Of a DNA stretch of 64,000 nucleotides, positions 54,609 to 60,416 are shown in pieces. The DNA lies in assembly GCF_033705735.1 (NCBI RefSeq), contig NZ_CP131131.1, positions 1,827,768 through 1,891,767 of the forward strand. The letters are read 5' to 3'. The stretch is from Shinella zoogloeoides (GTDB lineage Bacteria > Pseudomonadota > Alphaproteobacteria > Rhizobiales > Rhizobiaceae). Position numbers and translations under genes: made by a program. Under the pieces are notes generated by a model that searched no databases, was not told the origin of the DNA, and worked only from the letters and a program-made list of their open reading frames with translations. Every line of letters starts with the position of its first letter. Within the stretch, counting starts at the first letter, position 1.

Positions 54609-55541
54609 TTACGTCCAGGCATAACGCACGATATGGAAGAAGACCGGCGCGGCGAAGACCAGGCTGTCGGCGCGGTCGAGCATGCCGCCGTGCCCCTCGA
54701 TCATATGGCCCCAGTCCTTGACGCCGCGGTCGCGCTTGATCGCCGAGGCGACAAGCCCGCCGAAGAAGCCCATGATGCAGGCAAGGCCGGCCAGCACGCC
54801 CGCCTCCAGCGGCGAGAAGGGCGTCAGCCAGTAGAGCCCGGCCCCCAGGAGCGACGCGCTGGCGATGCCGCCGATCAGGCCTTCCCAGGTCTTGGAAGGC
54901 GAGATGTTCGGCGCAACCTTGTGGCGGCCGAAGAGCTTGCCGAAGATATATTGCAGCACGTCGCTGCCCTGCACCGTCGCGATCAGGAAGGCGATCAGCA
55001 GGAGCCCCCTGCCCTCGTTGCCGGGAATGGGCAGCGTCACCAACGCCGGCACGTGGCTGATGCAATAGACCGAGAGCATGATCCCCCATTGCTGCTCGCT
55101 GACCCGCTCCAGGAAGCGGGACGTGTCGCCGCGGATCGCCGTCAGCGCCGGCATGGCGAGGAAGCAATAGACGGGAACGAAGATCGAATAGAGCCCGTAC
55201 CAGTCGATCCAGATCAGGTAGTACTGGACCGGGATGACGATCAGGAACATGCCGAGCAGCGTCCAGCGGTCGGCATGGCGGGTGTTGGTGAGCGTCACAT
55301 ATTCGCGCAGCGCCGCGAAGGAGACGAAGGCGAAGAGCAGGATCACCCCGCCGGGACCGAACAGGAAGGCGGCGCTGATGCCCGCGACCATGATCCACCA
55401 GGCCTTGATGCGGGCATTGAGGTTGTCGAGCGTTGCCGGCAGCGGCCGCGTGCTGCGCCAGGAAAGGACGCCGGCAACGAGGCTTGCCGTGGTGAGGACG
55501 GCGACGAGGCCGAGGAAGAGGCGCGTGGTGTCGTCGCTCAT
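54609..55541 (-). CDS. Phosphatidate cytidylyltransferase-like protein (CdsA/YnbB type)
   Basis: 310 residues, about eight membrane helices, and a CdsA signature SPSKTWEGLIGGIASASLLG together with KRDRGVKDWGHMIEGHGGML-DRADS. CdsA proteins make CDP-diacylglycerol from CTP and phosphatidate. Because it lies in a cluster resembling ynbABCD, it is more likely the accessory YnbB-like enzyme than the housekeeping CdsA. Overlaps the acyltransferase gene by 4 bp. Confidence 0.9.
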   Translation of the reverse strand: MSDDTTRLFLGLVAVLTTASLVAGVLSWRSTRPLPATLDNLNARIKAWWIMVAGISAAFLFGPGGVILLFAFVSFAALREYVTLTNTRHADRWTLLGMFLIVIPVQYYLIWIDWYGLYSIFVPVYCFLAMPALTAIRGDTSRFLERVSEQQWGIMLSVYCISHVPALVTLPIPGNEGRGLLLIAFLIATVQGSDVLQYIFGKLFGRHKVAPNISPSKTWEGLIGGIASASLLGAGLYWLTPFSPLEAGVLAGLACIMGFFGGLVASAIKRDRGVKDWGHMIEGHGGMLDRADSLVFAAPVFFHIVRYAWT

Positions 55542-56194
55542 TGGCGATTTCCATCCTTTCGGGGCGCAAGGGCAAGAAGGGCGGCGCGGGCGCGGTCGAG
55601 GAAGACCTTCCGGTCCTCCCCCGCCTCCAGCCTGACGGGTTCGCCGAAGACGACGCGGCAGAGCAGCGGCACCGGCAGCAGCGCGCCCTTCGGCAGGACG
55701 CGCGACATGTTCTCGATCCAGCAGGGCACGAGCTCAACATCCGGCCGGGCGGCCGCGAGATTGTAGAGGCCGGAGCGGAAGCGCAGCAGCGGTTCATCCG
55801 TCATGTTGCGCGTGCCCTCGGGGAAGAAGATCAGGGATTCGCCCGCATCGAGCGCCGCGAGCATGACGGCAAGGGGATCGGTGGTGCGCTCAACCCAGTT
55901 GCGCTCGACGAGCACAGTGCGCAGCAGCTTTTGCGCAATGAAGCGGCGGACGGCATCCGCCTTCCAGTAATCCGCGCCGGCGACCGCGGCCGTCCGGCAG
56001 CGCTCTGCGGGATTGAGGCAGGTGGAAACCAGAATGAAATCGCCGTGGCTCGCGTGATTGGCGAAATAGATGCGCTGCGGGCCGTTCGGCTTCACGCCCG
56101 CCCAGATCGGCCGGACGCCGGTGACGGCGCGCGAAAGGCCCGCGAGCGCCGCGCTCGATGCTTTCTGGAGCAGCGATGCCTTGCCGTATCTCAT
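55538..56194 (-). CDS. 1-acylglycerol-phosphate acyltransferase-like protein (PlsC family)
   Basis: 218 residues from the ATG at 56194. Acyltransferase motif I NHASHGD, motif III FFPEGTRN and motif with LVPCWIENM. It probably transfers an acyl chain to a lysophospholipid or related alcohol. Overlaps neighbours on both sides by 4 bp, so it belongs to the lipid operon. Confidence 0.88.
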   Translation of the reverse strand: MRYGKASLLQKASSAALAGLSRAVTGVRPIWAGVKPNGPQRIYFANHASHGDFILVSTCLNPAERCRTAAVAGADYWKADAVRRFIAQKLLRTVLVERNWVERTTDPLAVMLAALDAGESLIFFPEGTRNMTDEPLLRFRSGLYNLAAARPDVELVPCWIENMSRVLPKGALLPVPLLCRVVFGEPVRLEAGEDRKVFLDRARAALLALAPRKDGNRQ

Positions 56195-56622
56195 GTTCCC
56201 ACCACAGCGTCGAGCAAGAGAACGGCATAGAGCATCACGCCGATGGCGAGCGAAACGCGTTGCAGCCAGAGAAGCCGGCGGCATCCGGCAAGGCGTTCCG
56301 GCATGGTGCGCACCACCCCGTCCCTCGCGCGAAGGCCCATTCGCGCCAGCACGTCATCCACCGCGGCAAGGCCTGTCGCCTCCTCGCCGTAGGAGGCGCC
56401 GAGCCGGAAGAGCGCGGCATCGAAGAGAAGATGGACCGAGAAGACGAGCGGCAGGAGGCAGAAGGCCAGCAGCAGCCACCAGGCAAGCGGCCCCGCAAAG
56501 CCTTCGGCCCCCGCGGTCGGCGGCGCGAGTGCGAGGACCAGCAAGGCGATGAGCCCGCCGGTGAGGCCATTGCGCCGCAGCCGACGGCCGGCGCCTTCCG
56601 CCATGCTGCTCCACGCGGTCAT
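56191..56622 (-). CDS. Membrane protein of unknown function in the lipid cluster
   Basis: 143 residues with three hydrophobic segments (GGLIALLVLALAPPTAGA, PLAWWLLLAFCLLPLVFSVH, VSLAIGVMLYAVLLLDAVV). Between helices 2 and 3 is a soluble loop with an Arg/Glu-rich stretch. Overlaps the acyltransferase and the PAP2/phosphatase gene by 4 bp each. No family recognised; real by its tight packing. Confidence 0.75.
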   Translation of the reverse strand: MTAWSSMAEGAGRRLRRNGLTGGLIALLVLALAPPTAGAEGFAGPLAWWLLLAFCLLPLVFSVHLLFDAALFRLGASYGEEATGLAAVDDVLARMGLRARDGVVRTMPERLAGCRRLLWLQRVSLAIGVMLYAVLLLDAVVGT

Positions 56623-57953
56623 CGCGCCGCCTCCTCGATGGCCGCATAGACCCCGACGTCCAGACGGACCGGCCGGCCGGATGCCTCGATCTGCGCCACG
56701 GCGGCCGCGGCACTTCCCGCATGCCCCGACCGCAGCAGCCAGCAGGCGGCAACCATGGCGCTACGCTGGAAGCCGAGGGCGCAGCAGATAAGAACGGGGC
56801 CATGCCGGCTGGCCGTCTCGACCGCCAGCGCGGCCTCGCGGATGCGCGCGACAGGGACGGGCAACAGGTCGAGCGAGGGGAAGGCATGCCAGGCAAGGCC
56901 GGGCGCCTTCAGGCCCGGCAGTTCCGCCGTCATGTCGACGACCGCGGCACGGGTCGCAAGTTCGCCGCGCGCGGGCATGCGGCCGAGGAGGACGCCGTCG
57001 GCGATTTCGGCCGCTGGTGCAAGATGCCGCGTCCACCAGCGGATATTCAGCCGCACCCCGAGCCGGTAGGGCAGCAACAGCCAGCGGCCGGCAAGGCTGA
57101 TCGCGCCATCGGCCCCCTTCTGGAAGACCCGTTCCCCGGCCCCGGCATAGCCGGCGGCGACAAGGGCGAGCGCGAGCGCCGGCCAGAGAAGGAGGAGGCC
57201 GGCCCCGGAGCCGCGCGTTGCCGGAACCGTAAGGGCAAGCAGGATCGCCGCGCCCGACCCGTAGCAGATCGCAAGCCCCCGGGCCTTGGCGTCCTTCGTC
57301 AGGCGGAAGCCGGCAAGCGGCGAGGATTGCCCGGACGGGAAGAGCCAGAGCGCGAGGAGGCCGAGCAGCGCGCCCGTCGGAATGTCGATGACATGGTGCT
57401 GCCATGTGGTCAGCACCGAGATGCCGATGAGGAAGCACCAGGCATGCCATGCGGCACGCCATCCTCCGGCAAGCCGCGTGCGCCAATGGTCCCAGATGAT
57501 GACGAGCAGGGCGATATGCAGGGAAGGCGCCTGGTTGAACGGCTTGTCGAAACCGCCGAGCACGTCGAACATGAAGCCCGGCAGGCCATGCGTTTCCGGC
57601 CGCTGGAAGATCGCCTGCAGCGGGAAGGCGACGAAGCAGGCGACGGCGACGAGCTGCGCGGTGAGATAGCGGCGCGCGAGGCGCCCGACCTCTTCCGGAC
57701 TGTCGTTGACGAAGAGCGAGAGCGCATAGAAGGCATTGATCGACCAGTAGGGAACGATGGTCCAGGCGATGAAGGGAATGCGCCCTTCCCAGCCGAAGGC
57801 GAGGTTCGGCACATCGGCCCTCAGCGAGGCAAGCCAGTTCGCCGTGCCGTAGGTGAGATAGAAGAACGGCGCGAGGACGGCGAGCCAGAGCGCCGCTGCC
57901 CGGAAAACCGCGCGTCGGCCGCTCGACGGAACGGATGCGATACCCTCTCCCAT
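56619..57953 (-). CDS. PAP2-type phosphatase fused to a dual-specificity-phosphatase domain (YnbD-like)
   Basis: 444 residues from the ATG at 57953. N-terminal half has about six helices with PAP2-like residues (APSLHIALLVIIWDHWR, TTWQHHVIDIPTGALLG). A C-terminal soluble domain (about 305-440) carries CALGFQRSA, the C-x5-R loop of tyrosine/dual-specificity phosphatases; the residue before the Cys is Cys rather than the usual His. The two-domain form matches E. coli YnbD. It probably removes phosphate from a lipid intermediate. Starts 7 bp after the preceding gene. Confidence 0.85.
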   Translation of the reverse strand: MGEGIASVPSSGRRAVFRAAALWLAVLAPFFYLTYGTANWLASLRADVPNLAFGWEGRIPFIAWTIVPYWSINAFYALSLFVNDSPEEVGRLARRYLTAQLVAVACFVAFPLQAIFQRPETHGLPGFMFDVLGGFDKPFNQAPSLHIALLVIIWDHWRTRLAGGWRAAWHAWCFLIGISVLTTWQHHVIDIPTGALLGLLALWLFPSGQSSPLAGFRLTKDAKARGLAICYGSGAAILLALTVPATRGSGAGLLLLWPALALALVAAGYAGAGERVFQKGADGAISLAGRWLLLPYRLGVRLNIRWWTRHLAPAAEIADGVLLGRMPARGELATRAAVVDMTAELPGLKAPGLAWHAFPSLDLLPVPVARIREAALAVETASRHGPVLICCALGFQRSAMVAACWLLRSGHAGSAAAAVAQIEASGRPVRLDVGVYAAIEEAAR

Positions 57954-57960
57954 GCGATCC

Positions 57961-59697
57961 TCAGATGCGCTCGGCGAGCGACACGGTGAAGATGCCCCAC
58001 TTGTCGATACGCTGCTCGATCTTGCGGAAGCCGGCGGCGGCCACGAGCTGGTCCATCTCCTGCTGGGTGCGCCGGCGCATGATCCAGGCCTCGCCGCCGC
58101 GATGCGAGGTGAGCGCACGGGCGATCATCTCGAGCTGCGGATGCCAGGGCTGGCCGGTATAGACGAGCAGCGCTCCCGGCTCCATCGCCCGCGCGAGGCC
58201 GGCAAGCGAGCCCTCGATCAGCGCATTGTCCGGGAAGAGTTCATAGAGGCCGGAGACGATGGCGAGCGTCGGCTTCGGCGCGACGGCGGCAAGCCCCTCC
58301 GTGTCGAAGGCGTCGGCGCGGTGGAAGGCGGCGATGTCCCGAAGGCCGCGTTCGGCGATCAGCACCGAGCCTTTCTCCACGTTGATCAGCGAATAATCCT
58401 GCAGGCGGATGCTCTCCGGCTTCGCATCCGAGGCGGTGACGGCATCCAGCACGTAGCGGCCGTGACCGGCGGCGATGTCGAGGACGCGCAGTGGCCTTCC
58501 TTCCGCCGCAAGGCGCGAAAGCGCCTTTGCGATCAGTTCCTCCAGATGGATCTTCCGCTGCCGGATGCCGCGCCAGCCGATGGCCTCGAGGAATTGCCTG
58601 TCGACCCGCCGCCCGCCGGGTCCGAGGCCGCGCGGTTCGTTTTCATAGACATAGTCCAGCGTGGAGCCGGAATCGAAGCCGGTGCGAACGCCGGTCGCCA
58701 TCCCCTTGGAAAAGAGGGCGCCCAGCCGGATCGAGGCGCGCGTCATCGCCCAGTAGAGGCCGCGCGGGGAGAAGGGCGAAAGCGGCGTTGCCAGACGATC
58801 CGCCTCGTCGCGCGTATGACTAGACAAATGGGCCTGCCGGAGATCCGCGGCGACCGGCGGCGCGGCAAAGCGGGCGAGGATGAAGGCGCGCAGCTTTTCC
58901 AGCGCCTTCGCCCGGTCCCGCTCGCCGAGCGTGTCGTGATAGAAGCCGGGCAGCACATGGCGTTCCTTGATCGTCGAGCCGAGATTTTCGAAGAAGCGGT
59001 GCTGCGGCGCGTGGCGCACGACGAAATCGCTGCCCGAAACGAGAAGCTGCGTCGGCACCGTGATCGCGCGGGCATCGGCCACCACGCGGTCCGCCGCCTC
59101 GTAGAGTTCCAGGAGGATGTTGGAGGCGATGGGACGGGTGATCAGCGGATCGGCTTCGAAGGAGGCGATGCGCTCGGGATCGTGCGTCAGGAAGCGCGCC
59201 TTGACATAGGAGTTGACGAAGAACGTGCCCTTCAGCTTCTGCCAGAGCGCGATGCCCTCCTTCGCGAAGGGCACGTAGAGCTTCACGTCGAAAGCGGGCG
59301 AAGCGAGCGCCAGCGCGCGGATATGCGGCGCGTAGTCGTGCACCCAGGTCGCGGCCAGGACGGCGCCGACGCTCTGGGCGACGACGGCGATGTCCTCCAT
59401 GGCAAAGCCGTCCGTCTCGCTTATATGGCGCACGAAGCAGTCGAGGTCGCGCACCGAATGGGCGAAGGACGGGGAATGGCCCCGCTCGCCGGGCGAGCGG
59501 CCATGCCCGCGCGCATCCCAGGCATAGAAGGTGAAATCGTCGAGGCCGAGTTCCTCGGCGATATGCGCGACGCGTCCGCCATGTTCGTGGCCGCGATGCA
59601 GAAGCACGATCGCGCCCCTGGCGGTGCCGGAGCGGGCGGGCCAGACGCGATAGAACAGCTCCACGCCATCATGGCTCGCAAACGCCTTTTCGATCAT
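57961..59697 (-). CDS. Alpha/beta hydrolase fused to SAM-dependent methyltransferase (YnbC-like)
   Basis: 578 residues from the ATG at 59697 (GGGG upstream). Residues about 1-290 form an alpha/beta hydrolase (LLHRGHEHGGRVAHIAEEL, WDARGHGRSPGERG, nucleophile in VAQSVGAVLAA, which is A-x-S-x-G rather than G-x-S-x-G). Residues about 390-578 form a class I methyltransferase (VLDIAAGHGRYVLDAVTASD). This rare fusion is the form of E. coli YnbC (about 585 residues). The reaction is unknown; a lysophospholipase joined to a lipid or polar-head methylase is a reasonable guess. Confidence 0.87.
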   Translation of the reverse strand: MIEKAFASHDGVELFYRVWPARSGTARGAIVLLHRGHEHGGRVAHIAEELGLDDFTFYAWDARGHGRSPGERGHSPSFAHSVRDLDCFVRHISETDGFAMEDIAVVAQSVGAVLAATWVHDYAPHIRALALASPAFDVKLYVPFAKEGIALWQKLKGTFFVNSYVKARFLTHDPERIASFEADPLITRPIASNILLELYEAADRVVADARAITVPTQLLVSGSDFVVRHAPQHRFFENLGSTIKERHVLPGFYHDTLGERDRAKALEKLRAFILARFAAPPVAADLRQAHLSSHTRDEADRLATPLSPFSPRGLYWAMTRASIRLGALFSKGMATGVRTGFDSGSTLDYVYENEPRGLGPGGRRVDRQFLEAIGWRGIRQRKIHLEELIAKALSRLAAEGRPLRVLDIAAGHGRYVLDAVTASDAKPESIRLQDYSLINVEKGSVLIAERGLRDIAAFHRADAFDTEGLAAVAPKPTLAIVSGLYELFPDNALIEGSLAGLARAMEPGALLVYTGQPWHPQLEMIARALTSHRGGEAWIMRRRTQQEMDQLVAAAGFRKIEQRIDKWGIFTVSLAERI

Positions 59698-59819
59698 GCC
59701 GTCATCCCCTTGCACTGATATCGTCCTCCCCTATACGGATGAGGCCCCATATTCGCAGTTGATTTCTCGTCGATTGCGCTTTCTTTTCAATCGAAGCAAT
59801 CGAGCGGATTTTCGCTTTC

Positions 59820-60416
59820 ATGTCGATCTATAAACTGAAATCGTCCTTCCAGAGCCTGCTTCGTCCACTGGTGGGACGGCTGGCGGCCATGGGGCTCACC
59901 GCCAACCAGGTGACGCTCGTCGCCGCCATCGTCTCGGTGGGGATCGGCGCGCTGCTGCTTGCCCGGCCCGAGCCGGCGCTCTTCGCGCTCGTGCCGGTCT
60001 GGATGTTCCTGCGCATGGCGTTCAACGCCATCGACGGCATGTTGGCGCGCGAGCATGGCCAGAAGAGCGCGCTCGGCGGCTATCTCAACGAGATCGCCGA
60101 TGTCGTTTCCGATGCGGCGCTCTATGTGCCCTTCGCCCTGATCGCCCCCTTCTCGCTGCCCTGGATGGCGGCCATCGTGTTCCTCGCGACCCTCACGGAG
60201 TTCGCCGGCGTTCTCGGCGTCGCCCATGGCAGCGGGCGCAACTACGAGGGGCCGATGGGCAAGAGCGACCGTGCGCTGCTTTTCGGGGCGCTGGGCGCCC
60301 TCGTCGCCGCTTTCGGCACGCTGCCGGCCTGGACATGGCATATCCAGCCGATGGCCTGCGTGCTGCTCGTCTGGACCGTGGTCAACCGCGTGCGCGCGGG
60401 CCTTGCCGAAAGCTGA
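59820..60416 (+). CDS. CDP-alcohol phosphatidyltransferase variant (YnbA-like)
   Basis: 198 residues with about six membrane helices. The CDP-alcohol signature reads N-A-I-D-G-M-L-A-R, eight residues, G-G-Y-L-N-E-I-A-D. Compared with the classical D-x2-D-G-x2-A-R-x8-G-x3-D-x3-D, the first and third aspartates are both Asn. From memory E. coli YnbA has the same two substitutions, so this is a feature of the YnbA subfamily. It is divergent from the YnbC-like gene and ends 4 bp from rarA. Product alcohol unknown. Confidence 0.86.
   Translation: MSIYKLKSSFQSLLRPLVGRLAAMGLTANQVTLVAAIVSVGIGALLLARPEPALFALVPVWMFLRMAFNAIDGMLAREHGQKSALGGYLNEIADVVSDAALYVPFALIAPFSLPWMAAIVFLATLTEFAGVLGVAHGSGRNYEGPMGKSDRALLFGALGALVAAFGTLPAWTWHIQPMACVLLVWTVVNRVRAGLAES

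Follow-up and report, generated by a model that had tools for sequence, protein, structure and literature searches.

A six-gene operon of Shinella zoogloeoides as a probable member of the Arc1/Ynb family of lipid gene clusters

Results

A 64,000-nucleotide stretch of the Shinella zoogloeoides contig NZ_CP131131.1, called the window below, carries, near the end of the 1.89-Mb contig, at positions 54,609–60,416, six genes for relatives of YnbA, YnbB, YnbC and YnbD of Escherichia coli, a PlsC-like acyltransferase and a 143-residue membrane protein that we call M143. The operon is genuine and conserved and belongs to a system already on record but as yet unexplained, and its sequence relationships identify it as homologous to arc1A–F (PA2541–PA2536) of Pseudomonas aeruginosa. 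We lean towards the view that the locus is the Shinella member of an Arc1/Ynb family, a dedicated accessory phospholipid pathway that would alter the inner membrane and aid survival of envelope attack. The gene set probably makes a special membrane lipid, and a route to an undescribed phospholipid, proposed in the initial annotation of this stretch, is plausible from the predicted enzymes.

The annotation of PA2541–PA2536 was tested by mapping of the published primers. When up to three mismatches were allowed, the primer for the start of PA2541 hit 15 of the 25 genomes examined from one Pseudomonas genus, among them G845 exactly; another PA2541 primer had no match in the 25. Within G845 (locus L242), 11 of 14 primer parts matched with at most one mismatch and three parts were not found. 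The PA2541 primers mark both ends of YnbA and the PA2536 primers both ends of YnbB; tblastn and hidden Markov model searches placed YnbC, YnbD, M143 (E = 1.5e-31) and PlsC between them. The primer matches suggest that G845 belongs to P. aeruginosa or to a species close to it. Four primer parts searched against the other fetched loci gave one match with two mismatches (L076), taken as chance. Because the PA2541 and PA2536 primers map in order onto YnbA and YnbB with the other four genes between them, we identify the Shinella set, on sequence grounds, as the homologue of arc1A–F. Five of the six arc1 genes look lipid-related, and four of the products have been likened to enzymes of phosphatidylglycerol synthesis (PMC8926400; here and below, published findings are given as they stand in excerpts of the cited papers); the trait of five phospholipid-related products recurred in the window, where YnbA, YnbB, YnbC, YnbD and PlsC have Pfam matches and M143 is without a family.

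Arc1, antagonism resistance cluster 1, came from transposon screens (Ting et al. 2022, PMC8926400). The operon is controlled and induced by Gac/Rsm (PMC8926400), and one RsmA binding site is listed for PA2541 (PMC4066749). Without PA2541, P. aeruginosa survives type VI attack by B. thailandensis less well, a defect that is partly complemented and to which additional deletion of PA2536 adds nothing, and mutant survival is normal under heat, peroxide, salt and detergent (PMC8926400). The term ynb is absent from that paper, and the link between ynb and arc1 was not met in the literature searched, although other or differently worded papers may hold it.

The initial annotation had assigned YnbA–YnbD together with their rare domain fusions, and both Pfam matches and the E. 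coli K-12 locus (L018) bear this out. There the four homologues lie side by side, with 44, 42, 56 and 39% identity for YnbA, YnbB, YnbC and YnbD, and for this reason the cluster is more than a chance grouping; PlsC and M143 are absent from the K-12 locus. E. coli YnbB makes CDP-diacylglycerol in vitro (review PMC7018664, citing Sato et al. 2019), its overproduction raises the glycolipid MPIase (PMC6362211), and it is reported to take part in making the MPIase precursor (PMC6362211, PMC7018664, PMC10881803). Other records of the locus are scattered: a transposon insertion in ynbC leaves the intron protein LtrA more diffuse, polar effects being possible (PMC2435150); the former choline-phosphotransferase label of YnbA has been withdrawn from EcoCyc (PMC3781023); ynbB surfaced in a transposon screen, yet is unneeded for phosphoglyceride-linked enterobacterial common antigen (PMC8609368); and ynbA was up 3-fold in an acid-tolerance study that also cites activation by BglJ-RcsB (PMC12871917).

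Distribution was assessed in 397 evenly drawn Pseudomonadota genomes, with PF12147, the methyltransferase half of YnbC, as marker. We found 31 carriers and examined the neighbourhoods of all of them (28 fetched as L162–L189, plus the window, L027 and L028). All six genes lay within 7.5 kb of YnbC in 26 carriers (24 of the 28, the window and G082). Order or strand differs in a few, with PlsC–YnbB on the other side in G707 and a 2-kb stretch between YnbC and YnbD in G768. The five exceptions were three genomes without PlsC and YnbB at the locus (G023, G651, G799), one with YnbA and YnbC only (G681) and one without YnbD and M143 there (G622). Because 26 of 31 carriers have all six genes and E. 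coli K-12 has four, the six-gene cluster is the usual form and E. coli ynbABCD the reduced one, which rules out the earlier reading of the Shinella cluster as an expanded ynb locus. The same survey, with M143 present in 30 of the 31 genomes, upholds the proposal that PlsC and M143 belong to the same system.

We also counted named Rhizobiales loci, which were the best 80 of 438 and thus biased towards relatives of Shinella; two (L086, L101) were dropped as incomplete. Of the remaining 78, 50 had all six genes, 20 lacked PlsC and YnbB (the Rhizobium leguminosarum group), seven lacked M143 only (L084 keeps a short remnant) and one lacked YnbD and M143. Given these 20 loci and the five exceptional genomes above, the earlier suggestion of a self-contained route does not hold everywhere. 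Across the order, PF12147 occurred in 15 of 199 genomes, and the six genes were complete in 6 of the 10 genomes counted (of 12); L031–L033, of which L032 was incomplete and dropped from the count, have a methyltransferase-only YnbC with YnbA, PlsC and YnbB.

Several individual loci are recorded here in their own right. L099, named Bacillus subtilis SK6B4, has the cluster layout and identities to the window of Pseudochrobactrum L098 and L110 and is probably a mislabelled or contaminated assembly. Rhizobium sp. RCAM05350 (L077, L196) carries a broken cluster, in which the YnbD match is cut and YnbB is split in two, together with another broken PlsC–YnbB copy, as in a decay in progress. A Citrobacter IncF plasmid (L251:4820–10406) has ynbA, ynbB, plsC, ynbC, ynbD and a gene for a 137-residue protein consecutively, the last, at the place of M143, giving only a weak profile match (E = 2.7e-4, four-sequence search). 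MOB-suite classes this plasmid as non-mobilizable; tra genes are close by, and the cluster lies near a Tn3-family transposase and a recombinase; the gene set may travel in such a context. A Moraxella osloensis plasmid (L250:6305–14167) holds, amid insertion sequences, a YnbA with the Asn/Asn signature described below, a two-piece YnbC match, a cytidylyltransferase and a PAP2-family protein, which looks like a rearranged cluster. On a Kosakonia plasmid (L245:2373–8098) a YnbC-related protein ends a fatty-acid-synthesis-like gene row, the other ynb genes being absent from that stretch. Outside Pseudomonadota, Fusobacterium vincentii has a YnbC–YnbA–YnbB cluster (L244:6974–10093).

The gene for YnbA (Arc1A; 59,820–60,416, plus strand, divergent from the others) encodes a CDP-alcohol phosphotransferase family member of 198 residues (PF01066, 40.6 bits, cut-off 22). 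Clarke et al. describe the family signature, D1xxD2G1xxAR...G2xxxD3xxxD4, as eight absolutely conserved residues, D1–D3 coordinating metal and D4 being the likely base (PMC4634129). YnbA departs from this four-Asp signature, with Asn at D1 and D3 (N69xxD72GxxAR...G86xxxN90xxxD94). Both Asn residues were present in all 126 aligned copies (125 loci and the window, some genomes counted twice), in 93 of the 95 open reading frames matched in loci of Hyphomicrobiales and E. coli (two were fragments that lack the region) and in eight of eight more copies from Fusobacterium vincentii, Moraxella, Paracoccus, S. meliloti, Rhizobium, Burkholderia, the Citrobacter plasmid and the genome found with the PA2541 primer. 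The broken sister copy in L196 has Ile at the D1 place in the printed frame. Among 26 diverse copies, N69, D72, G73, N90, E91, D94 and D98 were invariant, as was most of the GPxGKSDRA stretch, and because these signature-region residues never varied, YnbA appears constrained and not decaying. For a control we read 51 PF01066 matches in 13 cluster-bearing genomes, which comprised 13 YnbA and 38 others (25 of these read by script, 4 by eye where the pattern had anchored three residues early, and 9 more); all 38 others keep the four Asp. The uniform Asn/Asn pair in YnbA, against the intact signature of other family members, is new here.

By profile, the nearest solved relatives of YnbA were phosphatidylinositol-phosphate synthases (6h53, 6h5a, 6wm5; E = 2.3e-12, residues 8–194), and the match to phosphatidylglycerol-phosphate synthase was far weaker (0.26). 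A C-terminal Arg of YnbA aligns with one that lies close to the acceptor site, a role described in PMC4634129. The inositol-1-phosphate synthase family PF01658 was found in none of 14 cluster-bearing genomes and in 6 of 14 control genomes. This disfavours inositol-1-phosphate from PF01658 as the acceptor, leaving imported inositol or another synthase as possible sources, and makes another phosphorylated polyol the more likely acceptor. A protein search with YnbA matched 6261 proteins, and the 120 listed were close Rhizobiaceae relatives.

M143 (Arc1D; 56,191–56,622, minus strand) is an undescribed membrane protein, hydrophobic at about residues 18–75 and 115–143 by hydropathy, with D89 and R110 invariant and D68, L71, F72, L92, L97 and G113 nearly so in an alignment of 53 homologues. 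It matched no Pfam or NCBIfam family, and scattered matches to one or two members only were taken as chance. The Rhizobiaceae-type proteins and those of other groups are homologous by hhalign (probability 98%, E = 1.8e-13); in a search of the 21,347 open reading frames of the fetched loci, the profile of one group recovered 23 of the other group's 27 proteins at E ≤ 0.1 (22 at ≤ 1e-4) and the reverse search 70 of 70, every match adjoining YnbD. In the 397 genomes the profile gave strong matches (E ≤ 2.6e-12) in 30, all of them PF12147 carriers, G681 being the only carrier without M143; weak matches in G174 (5.3e-4, no PF12147) and a second one in G652 (7.0e-4) were taken as chance. A single-sequence search of 289 class genomes turned up the window and G082, plus a weak match of 54 residues in G247, and no others. 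YnbD accompanied M143 in 105 of 105 fetched loci, some genomes having been reached by two routes and counted twice. G622 tests this rule, as M143 was found away from the cluster first and YnbD then beside it, the two adjacent in overlapping frames about 41 kb off. Because M143 was never seen without YnbD, even there, it is best read as a partner of YnbD. M143 is thus an undescribed family always found with YnbD, a second observation that is new here.

YnbD (Arc1C; 56,619–57,953, minus strand, 444 residues) joins a PAP2-type domain to a dual-specificity phosphatase. The window copy scored below curated cut-offs for both halves (PAP2_3, 23.2 bits, cut-off 27; DSPc, 22.7 bits, cut-off 33.5), and among 28 aligned copies at E 0.01 DSPc matched 28, PAP2 21 and PAP2_3 19. 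Invariant in all 28 were S144-L145-H146, S179, H186, D190, D362, C391 and R397, which include a PAP2-like His-His-Asp set (PSLH, S-x6-H-x3-D) and a CX5R phosphatase site (C391-x5-R397, with D362). At what we take to be the third PAP2 motif, YnbD has Val where Arg is usual. The phosphatase half is similar to dual-specificity and small protein-tyrosine phosphatases, including PTPMT1; a solved-structure search with the N-terminal piece gave nothing useful.

YnbB (Arc1F; 54,609–55,541, minus strand) is a CdsA-type phosphatidate cytidylyltransferase of 310 residues (PF01148, 232.7 bits) with a C-terminal region, SAIKRDRGVKDWGHMIEGHGGMLDR, that we take to be the CdsA signature and that is conserved over 104 loci. 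PlsC (Arc1E; 55,538–56,194, minus strand, 218 residues) resembles lysophospholipid (1-acylglycerol-3-phosphate) acyltransferases (PF01553, 58.2 bits). Its NHxSHxD and FPEGTR motifs are intact and conserved over 102 loci, HX4D and FPEGTR being presumably the acyltransferase motifs; the best NCBIfam models were OlsA-type (lyso-ornithine-lipid acyltransferase) and 1-acylglycerol-3-phosphate acyltransferase, far below cut-off. YnbC (Arc1B; 57,961–59,697, minus strand, 578 residues; 98% identical to YnbC of S. zoogloeoides PQ7) joins a monoglyceride-lipase-like hydrolase (PF12146, 232.3 bits; best solved relatives monoglyceride lipases, 7.4e-19) to a class I S-adenosylmethionine (SAM) methyltransferase (PF12147, 486.7 bits), with S109, D224 and H254 conserved and the SAM motif DxAxGHGRY intact (119 loci).

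Parts of the set also occur apart. PlsC was always found with YnbB in the loci examined, and YnbB without PlsC in E. coli and Fusobacterium. In six genomes of the R. leguminosarum group without PlsC–YnbB at the ynb locus (L190–L195) we sought this pair elsewhere and found it in all, with YnbB 53–55% identical; it adjoined an Asn/Asn CDP-alcohol transferase in five, and none was found in L195. Among 138 plasmid records, the three opened, named plasmids of Rhizobium, S. meliloti and Paracoccus (L246, L247, L249), carried an operon of a CDP-alcohol transferase, PlsC and a CdsA.

In the window, ynbC, ynbD, M143, plsC and ynbB follow one another in transcription order on the minus strand. The interleaving of plsC and M143 by 4-bp overlaps, noted earlier, is confirmed by three ATGA overlaps in the sequence (YnbD/M143, 56,619–56,622; M143/PlsC, 56,191–56,194; PlsC/YnbB, 55,538–55,541), and YnbC and YnbD are 7 bp apart. 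YnbD probably starts at 57,953 rather than 58,118, and YnbC at 59,697, since homologues begin there. A second CdsA-type gene of the YnbB family on a different contig and three further CDP-alcohol transferase matches in the genome mark the cluster as an extra set. Alignment of 16 intergenic regions with MAFFT revealed an upstream element, TCAACT-N19-CGTATA (59,732–59,762, minus strand), preceding ynbC, which presumably resembles a promoter of an extracytoplasmic function sigma factor. Besides the window, 12 fetched loci, every one of them from Shinella, have its strict form, which occurs only once in the genome, so a shared promoter regulon was rejected and no regulator is indicated; a sigma-70 promoter scan found nothing. 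The window's genome also has a match to DUF2339 (PF10101, the Arc3A family) at G000:C1:685259–687649, and DUF2339 occurs in 8 of 14 cluster-bearing genomes.

Discussion

The most economical reading of the six proteins is a short pathway to a specialised, perhaps methylated, phosphatidyl-polyol, whose chemistry we infer from the families and motifs. PlsC would supply phosphatidic acid, as its motifs suggest, and YnbB would convert it to CDP-diacylglycerol, the reaction reported for E. coli YnbB and, by that analogy, the sole step with biochemical support. YnbA may then pass the phosphatidyl group to an acceptor. Since YnbA is related to phosphatidylinositol-phosphate synthase, this acceptor may be a phosphorylated polyol, though probably not the inositol-1-phosphate that the usual synthase supplies. 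The metal site of YnbA must differ, because Asn takes the place of two of the three metal ligands while the D4 base is retained. The dual-specificity phosphatase of YnbD, mostly with M143 as membrane partner, could strip off the surplus phosphate in the manner of phosphatidylglycerol-phosphate synthesis. The PAP2 domain of YnbD may work on the product from the outer face, and YnbC would deacylate the lipid, methylate it or both. A wider proposal, which we hold more tentatively, is that YnbA/Arc1A represents a CDP-alcohol phosphotransferase branch with a rebuilt metal site, spread from Fusobacteriota to Pseudomonadota usually near a YnbB-type CdsA and making an undescribed, possibly methylated phosphatidyl-polyol; ynbABCD, arc1 and the plasmid three-gene operons would then be one lipid system, an inducible membrane shield in which M143 partners YnbD.

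Several points weigh against a dedicated accessory pathway that protects the envelope. E. coli YnbB, even overproduced, fails to replace CdsA (PMC6362211), so bulk phospholipid synthesis in that species does not draw on it, and a YnbA that departs from an absolutely conserved signature could have lost transferase activity. Clusters without PlsC, YnbD and M143, such as that of Fusobacterium, show that the full route is not needed everywhere, and YnbD occurs without M143 in seven of the 78 named Rhizobiales loci and in E. coli. The mutant phenotype comes from P. aeruginosa only; removal of single toxins left the Arc1 defect unrelieved, so that none of those tested accounts for the effect, and for Tle3 and ColA one Arc1 gene each rose above the cut-off (PMC8926400). 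Loss of Arc1 also modestly raises the rival's survival, hence the effect is not purely defensive (PMC8926400). According to the same paper only gammaproteobacteria have Gac/Rsm, so Shinella must control the operon in another way. No lipid product of arc1 or ynb is named in the excerpts of the literature searched; the locus is not functionally blank, being the arc1 homologue and including YnbB, which makes CDP-diacylglycerol and supports MPIase.

Among other explanations, an unlikely one that still deserves weight is a cycle of membrane repair or remodelling, in which the lipase half of YnbC and PlsC would deacylate and reacylate lysophospholipids and YnbB, YnbA and YnbD would restore ordinary phosphatidylglycerol-type lipids after damage. 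The monoglyceride-lipase-like hydrolase, the lyso-ornithine-lipid acyltransferases as best (though far below cut-off) models for PlsC, the likening of four products to phosphatidylglycerol-synthesis enzymes and the contribution of one Arc1 gene against the phospholipase Tle3 (PMC8926400) all suit such a cycle. It needs neither an altered YnbA metal site nor a methyltransferase, however, PlsC is absent from E. coli K-12 ynb and from 20 of the 78 named Rhizobiales loci, and the arc1 defect persists after single toxins, Tle3 included, are inactivated (PMC8926400). More doubtful again is a YnbA that is no longer a transferase, binding CDP-diacylglycerol without turnover or hydrolysing it, so that the operon tunes the pool of phosphatidic acid and CDP-diacylglycerol. 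Loss of two of the residues that coordinate metal (PMC4634129) in all 126 copies would fit this, but YnbA retains D2, D4 and the glycines, and Fusobacteriota and Pseudomonadota alike show the one substitution, which argues for an altered active site and not decay; deletion of PA2541 alone also gives the arc1 phenotype (PMC8926400), though a binding role fits that too.

We give very little credence to a role in synthesis of an MPIase-type glycolipid (GlcNAc-PP-diacylglycerol), as proposed for E. coli YnbB. The effect of YnbB overproduction on MPIase and its part in precursor synthesis (PMC6362211, PMC7018664, PMC10881803) are set against an unchanged MPIase level in an E. coli ynbB deletion (PMC6362211) and against the six proteins, none of which matches a glycosyltransferase family in Pfam or NCBIfam. 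Equally improbable, and already disfavoured, is the idea that lipid genes have merely assembled here and share no product. The genes can be lost or moved separately, as in the 20 of 78 loci without PlsC and YnbB, the seven with YnbD and no M143, and the YnbB of E. coli and Fusobacterium that lacks a PlsC partner; but M143 and PF12147 coincide in 30 of 397 genomes (31 PF12147 carriers; M143 in 30 with strong matches and one weak), and single and double arc1 deletions behave as one pathway (PMC8926400).

Returning to the accessory phospholipid pathway that we favour, identification as Arc1 lowers the novelty of the cluster, and the Asn/Asn signature, the pairing of M143 with YnbD and the link between ynb and arc1 raise its usefulness. 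That link joins two literatures, on the orphan ynbABCD of E. coli (MPIase, intron-protein placement, acid tolerance) and on the arc1 defence operon of P. aeruginosa; if ynb and arc1 make the same lipid, its product can be sought in E. coli K-12 by simple deletions. With two metal ligands uniformly lost, YnbA is a sharp and testable exception to a signature said to be absolutely conserved, and M143 becomes a new family with a predicted partner, YnbD.

Compared with known systems, the Shinella cluster is closest to P. aeruginosa arc1, which has the same six families (in the order YnbA-YnbC-YnbD-M143-PlsC-YnbB in L242) and differs in that YnbA is divergently placed in Shinella, where Gac/Rsm would not be expected to act, and in that the upstream element was seen in its strict form in Shinella only. 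E. coli ynbABCD shares four homologues, the domain fusions and the Asn/Asn signature, but is without PlsC and M143 and has another gene order. The three-gene operons on plasmids of Rhizobium, Sinorhizobium meliloti (pSymB) and Paracoccus are alike in the YnbB relative, its PlsC partner and the Asn/Asn CDP-alcohol phosphotransferase, whereas YnbC, YnbD and M143 are not alongside and Ala-Ile/Val-Glu replaces Ala-Arg in the signature. With the phosphatidylinositol-phosphate synthase group, YnbA has in common the profile match, the catalytic base D4 and the C-terminal Arg, and it is set apart by Asn at D1 and D3 and by the absence of PF01658 from all 14 cluster-bearing genomes.

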